Part shown: positions 40,475 through 44,681 of the stretch, piece after piece
Numbering within the stretch: the stretch's first letter is position 1
Layout: each line of letters starts with the position of its first letter
Source: Gammaproteobacteria bacterium
Lineage (GTDB): Bacteria > Pseudomonadota > Gammaproteobacteria > GCA-001735895
DNA: 44,681 nucleotides
Direction: 5' to 3'
Assembly (NCBI GenBank): GCA_009937625.1
Contig: JAACFA010000035.1
Span: forward strand, 1-44,681
Notes under the pieces: generated by a model
What the model was told of the DNA's origin: nothing
Databases searched by the model: none
What the model saw: the letters and a program-made list of their open reading frames with translations, nothing else
Program-made: the position numbers and the translations under genes

Positions 40475-41461
40475 CTAGCGGTAGCACCAGTACTTGACTG
40501 CCTGGCGGTCGAGGAACGCCTCGGCTTCCTTGCCCTGCAGCATCGCTAGCGTGGACAGGATGCCGGCCTCGGTGCAGGTAGCCGCGGCCACCGTCACCGA
40601 GAGCGGGGACTCGGTGTTGGGCCAGCCGGTATTCGGATTCAGGATGTGCCCGTAGCGTTTGCCATTGTGCAGGATGAACTTGAATACGTCGCCGCTGGTG
40701 GCGAGCGCGCCGCGCTTGAGTTGGATCACCGCGTTCGCGTCACCCGCGCGGTGCGGGTTTTCGATGCCGGTCATCCAGGCCGAGCCGTCCGCCAGCGGCC
40801 GGCGGGCGTGGCAGTCGCCGCCAAAATTCACCAGGAAACTGTCGTCGGTGTTACGGGATAAGAGGCGCAGCGCGGAGTCGACGGCATACTCCTTGCCGAT
40901 GCCGCCGAAATCGATTTCCATGCCCGGGGGCAGCGTCAGGTAGGGTTTGTCCCAGGTGACTTTTTGCCAGCCGATGTGGGGCAGCAGGCGGTCGATTTCG
41001 GGCTGTGTCGGTATGCGTCCGCCATCGACGAACTTCCAGGCGCGGCGCAGAATGCCGGATGTGATATCGAACCAGCCGTCGCTCAGGTCGTAGCAGTTTT
41101 GCGCGAAGTCGAGCATGAGCGCGGTTTCGGCGTCGACTTCGATACGCCCGGCGCCGCTATTGATTTGATGGACGATATTGTCGTTGCGATAGCGGCTGAA
41201 TTTTTGCTCGATACGCAGCGCTTCGTTTTGCGCCAGTTCCAGCAATTCCCGCGCTGATGCCTTGCTGTTTCCTTCGAGCAGGACTTCGCAGGGACTGGCC
41301 ATGCATTGAAACCGGCCGACCCACAATTTTCCGCGTCTGCTGATGCTCAAGGATTTCGTCACTGCCGTCGATACCGCCGTCGTTTGCGAACACACGCTCT
41401 CGGCCAATGGCGGGCGGCGCTCCGATGAGGTGCATTTTAGCGCCGCATCGGCCCGGGGCAA
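40475..41461 (-). CDS. apbE: FAD:protein FMN transferase (ApbE)
   Basis: 328 aa as tracked. It moves FMN from FAD to a Thr or Ser of exported target proteins, with magnesium. Seen: QCMASPCEVLL at the start of the domain, DITSGILRRAWKF, EIDFGGIGKEYAVDSAL, FLVNFGGDCHA and the C-terminal GHILNPNTGWP. The start is uncertain: 41461 is TTG without a ribosome site, GTG codons at 41395 and 41362 are alternatives, and no clear signal peptide or lipobox is seen, which is unusual for this periplasmic enzyme. It is last in the tlpA-DUF4266-DUF3570-apbE unit; the preceding barrel carries a motif that fits as its substrate. Confidence 0.93.
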   Translation of the reverse strand: MPRADAALKCTSSERRPPLAESVCSQTTAVSTAVTKSLSISRRGKLWVGRFQCMASPCEVLLEGNSKASARELLELAQNEALRIEQKFSRYRNDNIVHQINSGAGRIEVDAETALMLDFAQNCYDLSDGWFDITSGILRRAWKFVDGGRIPTQPEIDRLLPHIGWQKVTWDKPYLTLPPGMEIDFGGIGKEYAVDSALRLLSRNTDDSFLVNFGGDCHARRPLADGSAWMTGIENPHRAGDANAVIQLKRGALATSGDVFKFILHNGKRYGHILNPNTGWPNTESPLSVTVAAATCTEAGILSTLAMLQGKEAEAFLDRQAVKYWCYR

Positions 41462-41477
41462 AATCGGTTATGGCGCG

Positions 41478-42683
41478 TTACCACCTGAACGAGTAGTTGA
41501 ACTGGACGATCGTGGCTTCCACGGTCGGGTACAGGTCCTGCTGGGCCAGTTGCCCGAAGGCTTCGGATGGCGACGAGTCTCCCTCCTGCTCGTATAGCTC
41601 CAGGCGGAACGACCACGAGCTTTGCTCGTCGATCTGTCTACCGAACTTGAAGCCGACGGTAGTAGCTTCCATTTCACCCAGGCGATAGTCGGCGCTGGCA
41701 TCACTCGGAAGCTCGCCGTCGCGCAGGAAGTAATAATAGAAATCGGCTTCAGATTGCTCGTACCAGCGCAGACGCGGTTGAAAATAATAGCCGTTGTCGA
41801 GGGTCCAGCGGTAGCTGAAGTCGAAGGTGTTCGAATCGACCCCCCAATCGTCCGTCATGAAACGGTACGACGCGGTGAAGATATCCTTGTTGGTAAGAAT
41901 CTTCTTGTACTTGCCGTAGATACTCTGCCGCGAGCGCGAATCGGGGCGGCTTTCGAACAACTGGTTGATCGGTTCGCCGGTAACATTATCGACCTCACTG
42001 ACGAACTTGTAGGGATCGGTCAGGTAGCCATCGGCTTCGCTCAGCGACAGGTTTACCTGGAACAGGCTGGAGCGATCGATTACCTGGGTAACCCCGAGCA
42101 AGAAATCGACGACGGTCCTGGTATCGGTATTATTTTTATCCTGCGCCAGCATATCGGTCAACGGTTCGGGCGCGCCGCCCACCGGGTCGATGTCATCGAA
42201 CTCGACATTGACGCCATAGGACCAGGTCGTATTCTTCTGGTTGGTATCGCGCTGCCACATGGCGTTGCCGCTGAGGGAGGTAAAATCGTATTCCTTCGAA
42301 AGCTTTTCCCAGTTCATGCTGAAGCTGACGCGAGTATCCTTGAAAGTGTCGTCTAACGGGGTCTCGTTGGGCGCGACCTGGTAGCTCCCGTTACCCGACG
42401 GACGGATAAAGGTCTGCACCATAGTAGAGGGCACGGCACCGCTAGCCGACGCGCCGGTCAGGCTGTCGAGCACCAGCTTCATGGTTAGAGATTCGTCGTC
42501 GCCGAGATCCCTGGTGCCGCTGATAACCGGCTCGAAAGCCTCGACGCGATCGTCGGATTCACTGTAGAACAGCACCGCGGTGTCGACATCCCAGTCGCCC
42601 TCTTCGGCCTGCACCGGCGCACCCAGCAGCGAGCAGGTTGCTGCGGACAACAAACCTGCAACCTTTTTTTTGCTTAGTTGCAT
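41478..42683 (-). CDS. DUF3570 outer-membrane beta-barrel protein
   Basis: 401 aa. A signal peptide (AGLLSAATCSLLGAPVQAEE) and alternating strands ending in the outer-membrane signature VQFNYSFRW (C-terminal aromatic) fit a barrel. Near the N-terminus residues 73-79 read DSLTGAS, matching the ApbE target pattern D-x-x-S/T-G-A-S/T with Thr76 as acceptor. It overlaps the DUF4266 gene by 10 nt and is followed 17 nt later by apbE. Family DUF3570 has no settled function; context suggests a flavinylated envelope redox protein. Confidence 0.88.
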   Translation of the reverse strand: MQLSKKKVAGLLSAATCSLLGAPVQAEEGDWDVDTAVLFYSESDDRVEAFEPVISGTRDLGDDESLTMKLVLDSLTGASASGAVPSTMVQTFIRPSGNGSYQVAPNETPLDDTFKDTRVSFSMNWEKLSKEYDFTSLSGNAMWQRDTNQKNTTWSYGVNVEFDDIDPVGGAPEPLTDMLAQDKNNTDTRTVVDFLLGVTQVIDRSSLFQVNLSLSEADGYLTDPYKFVSEVDNVTGEPINQLFESRPDSRSRQSIYGKYKKILTNKDIFTASYRFMTDDWGVDSNTFDFSYRWTLDNGYYFQPRLRWYEQSEADFYYYFLRDGELPSDASADYRLGEMEATTVGFKFGRQIDEQSSWSFRLELYEQEGDSSPSEAFGQLAQQDLYPTVEATIVQFNYSFRW

Positions 42684-42895
42684 CCACAGCCCCCGCCAGC
42701 AAATCCCTGTCCGCCGCTGGAGGCTTCCTTACTGAAGTAAATGTGTTCGTCGAAGGCAAGATCGAGCGCATCCGCATTCATCAGCATGTCCTCGCGCGCC
42801 AGCAAATCGCGTTCCCAGGGTTTGACGCCGAGCGAAGAACAACCGCTTGCGATCAACGCGCCGCATAAGATGAGGCTATGGCACTTGATATTCAT
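42674..42895 (-). CDS. DUF4266 small lipoprotein
   Basis: 73 aa. The lipobox is LIASGC (Cys19). The mature part has the family core KPWERDLLAREDMLMNADALDLAFDEHIYFSKEASSGG and ends GGGCGCN, a C-x-C pair that could bind metal or be oxidised. Its ATG overlaps the TlpA-like stop codon by 4 nt (ATGA) and its end overlaps the DUF3570 start by 10 nt. Known only as a neighbour of DUF3570 and ApbE; a role in membrane-surface redox or metal handling is inferred. Confidence 0.88.
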   Translation of the reverse strand: MNIKCHSLILCGALIASGCSSLGVKPWERDLLAREDMLMNADALDLAFDEHIYFSKEASSGGQGFAGGGCGCN

Positions 42896-43297
42896 AGTAA
42901 TTCCTCGATTTCACGTTCGTACTTTTCGATGTCCTTGGTGTAGAAGCCGATGTGCTTCTTAACCACCTTGCCGGAGGCGTCTATCAGGTACGAGGTCGGC
43001 ATGCCCTCGACCTTGAATTCTTCGGCGATCCGCCTTCACCTTGCTCAGAAAGCGATGCATGGCCTCGGATTCCGCATCCAGGTTAACCGTGACTACGGTA
43101 AAGGCATCGGCCGGGTATTTGGTTAGCAACTGGTTCATCCAGGGGAATGATCTCTGGCAGGGCTTGCACCAGGACGCCCAGAAGTCGAGGTAGAGCACCT
43201 TGCCGTGGTAACTCGAAAGGTCGAGTTGTTTGATGTCATAAATCTCGGCCCTGGCCGGAATTGCCGCCAGCAGCAACAGCAAGAAAATCGGTTTCAT
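42892..43297 (-). pseudogene. TlpA-like periplasmic thioredoxin, broken by a ~32-35-nt deletion and frameshift
   Basis: From the ATG at 43297 (the track GTG at 43312 is less likely) the protein has a signal peptide (MKPIFLLLLLAAIPARA) and the active site FWASWCKPCQRSF. After FLSKVKA the frame fails: the track ORF ends in a non-homologous tail (DRRRIQGRG...). In another frame the expected sequence resumes as RIAEEFKVEGMPTSYLIDASGKVVKKHIGFYTKDI and runs to a TGA that overlaps the DUF4266 ATG. About ten residues between the two parts are missing compared with TlpA/ResA relatives. The cis-Pro GMPTS is kept. As written it is inactive; a sequence error is an equally good explanation. Confidence 0.82.
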
Positions 43298-43369
43298 GAG
43301 ATGTCTCGTCACGTTATTTTCCTATTTGACACTAACGGCAATACTAGTGTTCCCCGCGTTAACGGTTTG

Positions 43370-44607
43370 TTAATCCGGGAACCGGACTTTCGCGATCATG
43401 CCGCCCGCGGGATTGGGCGCCAGTTCCAGCCCCCAGCCCTGGTAATCGCAGATTAGCTTGGAGATGTAGAGTCCGACCCCGTAGCCCTGACTGTTTTGCC
43501 CGCGATAGCCGAAATCGAAGATGTTTTGCAGGGATTCGCTGTCGATGCCGATACCGCTGTCGGTTATCGTCAGCAGCGACGCCTGCATGTCGATTCTGAT
43601 CGAGCTCTGCTGTCCGTGCTTAACCCCGTTTTTGATCAGGTTGGTCAGGACCACGGTAATTAGCGTCCTGTCGGTTTCGAGAACAATTTCATCGGCGAGC
43701 CGGTTTTCGACAGCGATCTGCTTGGCGTCGAGTTCGAGGCCCAGACTTTCGATGATTTCGTCGACCAGCGGTCGCAGTGCAATCCGCTCGCCCGTGTTGC
43801 GGGTCGGTTGGTCGCGGGTTACGGCCAGCAGCGCGTGAATCATATTGGCCATGTTGGCCGAGGCACGCTGGATCTTTTCCAGGTGAGGCACGGTCTCGGG
43901 GTCGTCGTGGCGGCTGGAAATCAGGTCTGCCGAGGTTTGCACGATAGTCAGCGGCGAGCGCAGCTCGTGGCTTGCCATCGCCGCGAAAGCCATTTGTTTT
44001 TCGACGTAGGAATCCATTTTTCGGGTGTAGGAGTCGAAAGCCTGCGCAATTCTGCCGACCTCGTCGTCTGCGAAGCGATCGCTGAGGCGAACACCACGCT
44101 CTGTGCGATCGGGCCGGACAGCTTCTTGCTCAAAATCCTGGAGATGACAAACACGACGACTAGCAGCACCACCCAGGCAACGCTCAGGATAATTTCGAGC
44201 ATTGCCTCGGAGCGTTCGATTTCGGTAACGTCGTGTCGAATGTAAACCCGATCGTCGCCAACCGAAGCTACCGTGACGTGGTAAGCCTTGTCGTCGATCT
44301 TGATGTCATGATGCACGCCCGCGTCGAGTTCGGCGAGGTAGTCCGAAATCGGCTGCGTCTGCTGTCGGCTTTCCAGGTATATGCTCAGGCTAGCCGAGCG
44401 CGGCAGCGGGGCAGACGGGTTCTTTGCCAGCAATTCCCGGATGTTCTGCAGTTCGTATTCGGTTTGCCTGGCGAGCAGGTCGTCTTCGAGTATTTCGTTC
44501 GAGTAGTAGACGACGAGGGTTAGCAGCGACAGAAAAAACACCGATGCCAGCAGAAAACTGACCATGATTCTGCGAAACAGCGGTGAGCCGCCGAGCAACG
44601 ATTTCAC
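43370..44607 (-). pseudogene. Sensor histidine kinase, broken by a ~34-nt deletion and frameshift in the HAMP-like region
   Basis: Two track ORFs (43948-44607 and 43370-44017) make one kinase. From the GTG at 44607: membrane helix 1 (about 14-34), a periplasmic part of about 100 residues, membrane helix 2 (about 140-160), then SKKLSGPIAQ where the frame fails. The other frame resumes at ERGVRLSDRFADDEVGRIAQAFDSY, then the H-box ASHELRSPLTIV, N-box NLIKNGVKHG, G1 DSGIGID and G2 GYGVGLYI. A 34-nt loss near 44098-44105 would restore 423 aa. The start overlaps the response-regulator stop codon (GTGA). With the regulator it would control the downstream redox genes. Confidence 0.85.
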
Positions 44608-44681
44608 CGCGCTTCGCTCCCGATACGATAACCAACGCCGTGGATGGTATGGATCAGTTCGCTGTCGAAAGGCTTGTCGAT
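44604..44681 (-). CDS. OmpR-family response regulator, C-terminal fragment
   Basis: Only the last 25 residues are in the window: IDKPFDSELIHTIHGVGYRI, then GSEAR and TGA. The HTIHGVGYRI ending is the wing of the OmpR/PhoB winged helix. Not in the ORF track. It overlaps the kinase start by 4 nt, so it is the first partner of that kinase in the same transcript. Confidence 0.85.
   Translation of the reverse strand: MDKPFDSELIHTIHGVGYRIGSEAR

Follow-up and report, generated by a model that had tools for sequence, protein, structure and literature searches.

Flavinylation by ApbE is usually described as periplasmic or extracytosolic, and the Sec machinery is normally thought to carry bare polypeptides. 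The closest described system is a gene cluster for ApbE, DUF3570, a thioredoxin-like protein and DUF4266, joined by DsbD in many genomes (Meheust et al., 2021, PMC8238504). According to the text of that study, the DUF3570 protein of Chlorobium luteolum is flavinylated upon co-expression with its cognate ApbE, and the modification is abolished only when both serines are replaced by alanine. FMN is attached to the last serine or threonine of the ApbE motif, D-x-x-[ST]-G-A-[ST] (PMC12052999). A cytosolic ApbE is known from Klebsiella, where it serves a soluble cytosolic fumarate reductase (PMC12052999).

Here we describe a related operon in a contig of 44,681 nucleotides from a gammaproteobacterial genome (JAACFA010000035.1; the window is this whole stretch, 44.7 kb). 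The central claim of the original prediction, that DUF3570 is a covalent flavoprotein and substrate of the adjacent ApbE, is a rediscovery of the work of Meheust et al. (2021) and is upheld by the experiment on a homologue in that study, by conservation of the motif and by its linkage to apbE. The proposed envelope electron path with the TlpA-like protein and DUF4266 stands in outline, as a redox gene cluster, and had already been published there. The part of that paper's text considered here discusses neither a signal-less ApbE, nor a metal-site swap, nor barrel topology; its supplementary gene tables list signal peptide predictions and may show the absence of the signal. Judged from the sequences, the lack of an export signal on the DUF3570-linked ApbE appears to be the new point relative to the literature.

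The operon and its motif

The operon lies on the minus strand and is of the DUF3570 flavinylation type, with genes for a TlpA-like protein, DUF4266, DUF3570 and ApbE:

42892..43312, minus strand: exported TlpA/thioredoxin-like protein (WCKPC), by profile match; a first frame (42959-43312) and a shifted remainder
42674..42895, minus strand: DUF4266 (PF14086, by Pfam), small exported lipoprotein-like protein with a C-terminal CGCN
41478..42683, minus strand: DUF3570 (PF12094), 401 aa; Pfam E-value 8.6e-122 over residues 11-399, i.e., the whole protein
42606-42683, minus strand: signal peptide of DUF3570, Sec-type, approximately residues 1-26, MQLSKKKVAGLLSAATCSLLGAPVQA, by hydrophobicity rule
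42447..42467, minus strand: ApbE recognition motif D73-S-L-T-G-A-S79, from the translated window; modelled at the extracellular end of strand 3
42447..42449, minus strand: codon of Ser79, the last motif residue and predicted FMN acceptor, by the motif rule (PMC12052999) and the Ser-to-Ala result in the text of PMC8238504
42432..42446, minus strand: A80-S81-G82-A83-V84, another xGA[x] repeat, adjoining the motif and ending in Val
40475..41461, minus strand: ApbE (PF02424), FMN transferase, the next gene after DUF3570; E-value 2.6e-64, start codon uncertain

The DUF4266 and DUF3570 genes share 10 nt at the stop of the first and the start of the second (42674-42683, minus strand; ATGCAACTAA), and these bases encode the C-terminal Cys-Asn of the former and the N-terminal Met-Gln-Leu of the latter. 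An MQL start is common among DUF3570 relatives, perhaps because of this overlap. The TlpA-like gene carries a one-base shift near 43030, right after its CxxC half, with the remainder continuing in another frame to 42892, and relatives (L034, L035, L040) have open frames of 153-169 aa. A sensor histidine kinase gene upstream (43370-44679, minus strand) is also split over two frames, joined near 44000-44100. With two frame shifts lying within about 1 kb of each other, faulty sequencing or assembly seems a likelier cause than the decay of both genes; the source genome is a draft of 342 contigs, 93% complete, in which local assembly errors are likely near the operon. Compared with the other aligned members, the window DUF3570 is also 13 residues short, in the hairpin of strands 4 and 5 (42290-42320, minus strand, around residues 124-126), and its nearest relative (L033, 94% identical) is 13 aa longer, at 414 aa; the gap is either an in-frame deletion or an assembly artefact. 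No dsbD lies in the operon region from 37.0 to 44.7 kb (the contig ends at 44681), the only DsbD_TM match of the genome being on contig C304, and the operon holds no conserved cytosolic gene as a candidate ApbE substrate. NCBIfam has no model for the window DUF3570, and its ApbE model scores far below the cut-off on the operon ApbE. A plasmid search returned only three matches, all distant, in Vibrio.

The motif DSLTGAS was found where it had been placed, at 42447-42467 on the minus strand (residues 73-79 of DUF3570), and D..[ST]GA[ST] occurs once among six-frame open reading frames of at least 60 aa across the whole 44.7-kb window. The pattern arises in 0.45% of shuffles of the window DUF3570, and conservation is the stronger evidence: an alignment of 42 relatives, spread over several phyla (Gammaproteobacteria, Verrucomicrobiota, Latescibacterota and Krumholzibacteriota among them), shows no variation at D73, T76 or G77 and keeps S79 in at least 90%, which rules out a chance match. 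The original prediction named Thr76 as the acceptor; Thr76 is the residue before the glycine, and because ApbE modifies the last serine or threonine of the motif, the predicted site is Ser79 (PMC12052999). The SGAV repeat was considered as a second flavin site and rejected, as valine cannot be flavinylated. At that spacing, five residues downstream, a second full [ST]GA[ST] occurs in only 3 of 131 flavin-type DUF3570 proteins; L088, L087, L024 and L028 have two motifs, farther apart.

The site reads [ST]-G-x-[ST] in 134 of 188 distinct DUF3570 proteins, mostly as D-x-[LIMV]-[ST]-G-A-[ST], and TGSS, TGNS and TGPS are among the variants tolerated with apbE still present; Bacteroidota and Chlorobiota, the latter the home of the tested C. 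luteolum homologue, lie outside the sample of these DUF3570 and ApbE comparisons. A second DUF3570 group reads D-x-[IV]-[ST]-S-A-S-I-D-V and has a member in the window's own genome (contig C55). There, a second TlpA/DUF4266/DUF3570 set (L078:2438-10380) has DNVTSAS in place of the glycine motif and no linked signal-less apbE; its neighbors are two small barrels, a transporter of the FhaC/ShlB type and a protein of 960 aa that combines CxxCH motifs with a hydrazine-synthase-alpha-like domain. The signal peptides of flavin-type DUF3570 proteins often share A-[AT]-C-[AS]-L-L-G, an unusual conservation for a signal peptide. The looser pattern [AST][AST]CxxxG is present in the signal peptides of 46/122 flavin-type proteins vs. 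0/51 of the other type, and the conserved Cys-x-Leu-Leu-Gly was considered, as a lead, as a hold-back signal.

The ApbE linked to flavin-motif DUF3570 proteins

The expected link between motif and apbE is borne out by the counts: a signal-less apbE adjoins 106 of the 134 DUF3570 genes with [ST]Gx[ST], vs. none of the 43 without the glycine. An apbE does lie near seven of these 43 DUF3570 genes (L179, L185, L189, L143, L144, L198, L206), and in each case the encoded enzyme carries a signal peptide and the usual metal-site Asp; these may represent a second kind of pairing. Where a flavin-type DUF3570 has no adjacent apbE, a signal-less apbE was found elsewhere in all 12 genomes checked, the Glu/Gly signature described below being read automatically in 10 of them. 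On the tree, the motif changes about six times. The independent contrasts number just 4-6, too few for a test, and in most of them apbE linkage does not differ, so that Fisher p values on the counts overstate the evidence. A repeated, correlated loss of motif and apbE in evolution was considered and is not borne out by so few contrasts. The association is strong in counts and rests on few evolutionary events.

The operon ApbE had been taken for an ordinary exported enzyme, which does not agree with its sequence: under any in-frame start, the window ApbE has neither a signal peptide nor a lipobox. A credible signal peptide is present in 0 of 118 distinct ApbEs beside flavin-motif DUF3570 proteins; 1/118, the split gene L057, was flagged by the rule used as a stand-in for SignalP (any in-frame start followed, before the domain is reached, by 10 consecutive hydrophobic residues without a charge). 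In stop-to-stop frames, the domain (F-x-A-M-A-S-P-C-E) begins almost at once, and 48 of the 118 frames leave 30 aa or fewer before it, too short for a signal peptide. The same kind of rule found signals in DUF3570 (98/112), DUF4266 (57/64), TlpA (84/89) and other ApbEs (37/44), many of these controls and operon partners coming from the same genomes as the signal-less ApbEs. Signal peptides initially flagged in four ApbEs (L024, L052, L054, L059) were rejected, the hydrophobic stretch being the first strand of the enzyme domain, as was that of L057, where the stretch is read out of frame. When 95 ApbEs were placed on a tree, a single branch (support 93) set the signal-less enzymes apart from the others. 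The absence of an export signal from the operon ApbE and its relatives suggests that flavin attachment takes place within the cell and precedes the export of DUF3570.

These enzymes also differ at the metal site. In Escherichia coli Ftp, metal 1 is bound by Asp280, the Thr166 oxygen and Thr284, and metal 2 by Glu169 (PMC4767422). The corresponding residues in the operon ApbE are as follows:

40889..40891, minus strand: Glu191 (numbered from the TTG start), in GGIGKEY; by alignment, one residue after the metal-2 ligand E169 of E. coli Ftp
40562..40564, minus strand: Gly300, aligned with Asp280 of E. coli Ftp, a ligand of metal 1

The Asp280 equivalent is glycine in 115 of 116 signal-less ApbEs and Asp or Glu in 49/50 others, and the position after the lysine of GGI[AG]K-G-Y is glutamate in all 116 and glycine in 49/50 others. 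The PF02424 domain, with its conserved catalytic His and Ser, is kept in the signal-less enzymes. Since the new glutamate directly follows position 169, it may stand in for the lost carboxylate. The Glu/Gly signature also offers a simple sequence test to find such ApbEs.

Barrel topology and the place of flavinylation

AlphaFold models of the window DUF3570 (pLDDT 83.5) and of an Agitococcus homologue (L042, pLDDT 88.3) are outer-membrane barrels, and the best PDB matches are likewise outer-membrane porins and channels, CymA (Z 18.9) and OmpG (Z 17.9) among them. The C-terminus, YSFRW, forms the aromatic C-terminal strand found in outer-membrane barrels. The Agitococcus model has 16 strands, with loops of 37, 21, 29, 28 and 19 aa all on the same face, opposite turns of 2-5 aa, and the outside and the periplasm were assigned with both barrel ends in the periplasm. 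In this model, strand 3 ends with D-x-x-T-G, and the second loop, of 37 residues and on the outer side, starts with the acceptor serine; the models were read as strand topology, and the Ser79 side chain may point to the lumen or to the outside. Strands 4 and 5 are short in the window model because of the 13 missing residues. The original prediction placed the motif on the periplasmic side, whereas in both models it lies where strand 3 ends on the outer side. The flavin is thus predicted at the base of the long second loop, on the surface side of the barrel.

We consider it somewhat probable that the barrel precursor receives its flavin from a dedicated ApbE in the cytosol, ahead of Sec export, an order and place of events that we infer from the missing signal and the modelled topology. 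DUF3570 would be made with its Sec signal peptide, and the signal-less ApbE would move FMN from cytosolic FAD to Ser79 of the unfolded precursor before it leaves the cytosol. After passage through Sec, the flavin-bearing precursor would form a barrel of 16 strands in the outer membrane, leaving the flavin at the extracellular end of strand 3, beyond the reach of a periplasmic transferase. A site on the outer side of the folded barrel would exclude such a transferase and require modification to precede assembly. Both the FAD at hand to a cytosolic ApbE and the unfolded state of the precursor count in favor of flavinylation before export. According to the text of Meheust et al. (2021), C. luteolum DUF3570 was recovered mostly in the pellet, and the cloning strategy was the one applied to signal-peptide-truncated DUF2271 and ApbE (PMC8238504), both of which are compatible with a cytosolic, poorly folded DUF3570 as ApbE substrate. 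SecYEG passes rigid organic adducts of up to about 2.4 nm (PMC6028853), so FMN should not be too large for export. If the flavin is added at this stage, a cofactor-loaded precursor passes Sec, and such loading would account for the very possibility of modifying a residue on the barrel's outer side. For the onward path, our guess is that electrons pass from the thioredoxin-like protein, via the DUF4266 CxC or directly, to the flavin and an outside acceptor, the direction of flow being a guess built on the gene cluster. The wider proposal, in which cytosolic loading by a metal-rearranged ApbE subfamily, passage through Sec and the outer membrane, and display on the outside together make a haem-free flavin electron route, is a tentative one, to which we give a little less than an even chance.

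Other routes to the same flavoprotein have to be weighed. DUF3570 could be flavinylated in the periplasm by another, exported ApbE, leaving the signal-less operon enzyme to modify some cytosolic protein. The genome does encode other ApbEs, at least one of them (C165) with a clear lipoprotein signal, and the Klebsiella enzyme with its soluble substrate is a precedent for the second part; against this stand the signal-less apbE that adjoins DUF3570 in 106/134 cases and is present in 12/12 checked non-adjacent genomes, an operon without a conserved cytosolic candidate substrate, and the tested homologue, which the text of PMC8238504 reports as modified by its own cognate ApbE. We regard this division of labor as unlikely. 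It is very improbable that the operon ApbE itself reaches the periplasm without a recognizable signal, by non-classical export or carried with DUF3570, to act on the unfolded barrel. Among the other ApbEs examined, the majority work outside the cytosol (PMC12052999) and carry signals, which speaks for an extracytosolic site of action; 117/118 of the linked ApbEs, however, have no hydrophobic N-terminus, 48 frames are too short for one, and ApbE is a folded domain that could not pass Sec together with its substrate.

The motif itself could be read differently. That D-x-x-[ST]-x-x-S is mainly structural, marking the junction of strand 3 and loop 2, and carries no flavin in this species would fit the paralogues without a linked signal-less apbE, including the one in the same genome, which keep D-x-x-[ST]-S-A-S at this place, so that Asp and Ser are conserved without Gly. 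Yet the glycine and the signal-less apbE co-occur in the sample, and the motif serines of a homologue carry flavin according to the text of PMC8238504, which makes a purely structural role here quite doubtful. The reading of the original prediction, with FMN on Thr76 near the N-terminus and on the periplasmic side, draws on the position of the motif close to a mature N-terminus that starts in the periplasm; with ApbE modifying the last serine or threonine, and with the strand count from either end leading to the outer end of strand 3, it is hardly tenable. Flavinylation of Ser79 on the cytosolic precursor is thus the reading that we favor.

Comparison with known systems

The operon shares with the clusters of Meheust et al. 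(2021) the same four families and the same motif with a serine acceptor, and differs from them, as far as the text of that paper describes them, in having one full motif (TGAS, 76-79) where the published family logo has two, and from the DsbD-linked clusters in having no dsbD in the examined part of the window. The Klebsiella system (PMC12052999) resembles it in a signal-less ApbE working in the cytosol, as predicted here, whereas its substrate stays cytosolic and DUF3570, with its signal peptide, is destined for the outer membrane. With the exported ApbE/Ftp enzymes, partners of NqrC and RnfG, the operon ApbE shares the PF02424 fold, the catalytic His and Ser and the Thr metal ligand, and the same reaction is expected of it; unlike them, it has no signal peptide or lipobox, its metal-1 Asp is replaced by Gly, and Gly is replaced by Glu beside the metal-2 ligand. 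In the porin-cytochrome conduits of extracellular electron transfer, an outer-membrane barrel holds a haem protein inside. The DUF3570 barrel may, by analogy, also pass electrons across the outer membrane, with the flavin on the barrel itself instead of a haem protein inside. For cells that have no suitable cytochromes, the system could reveal a way of moving electrons over this barrier.
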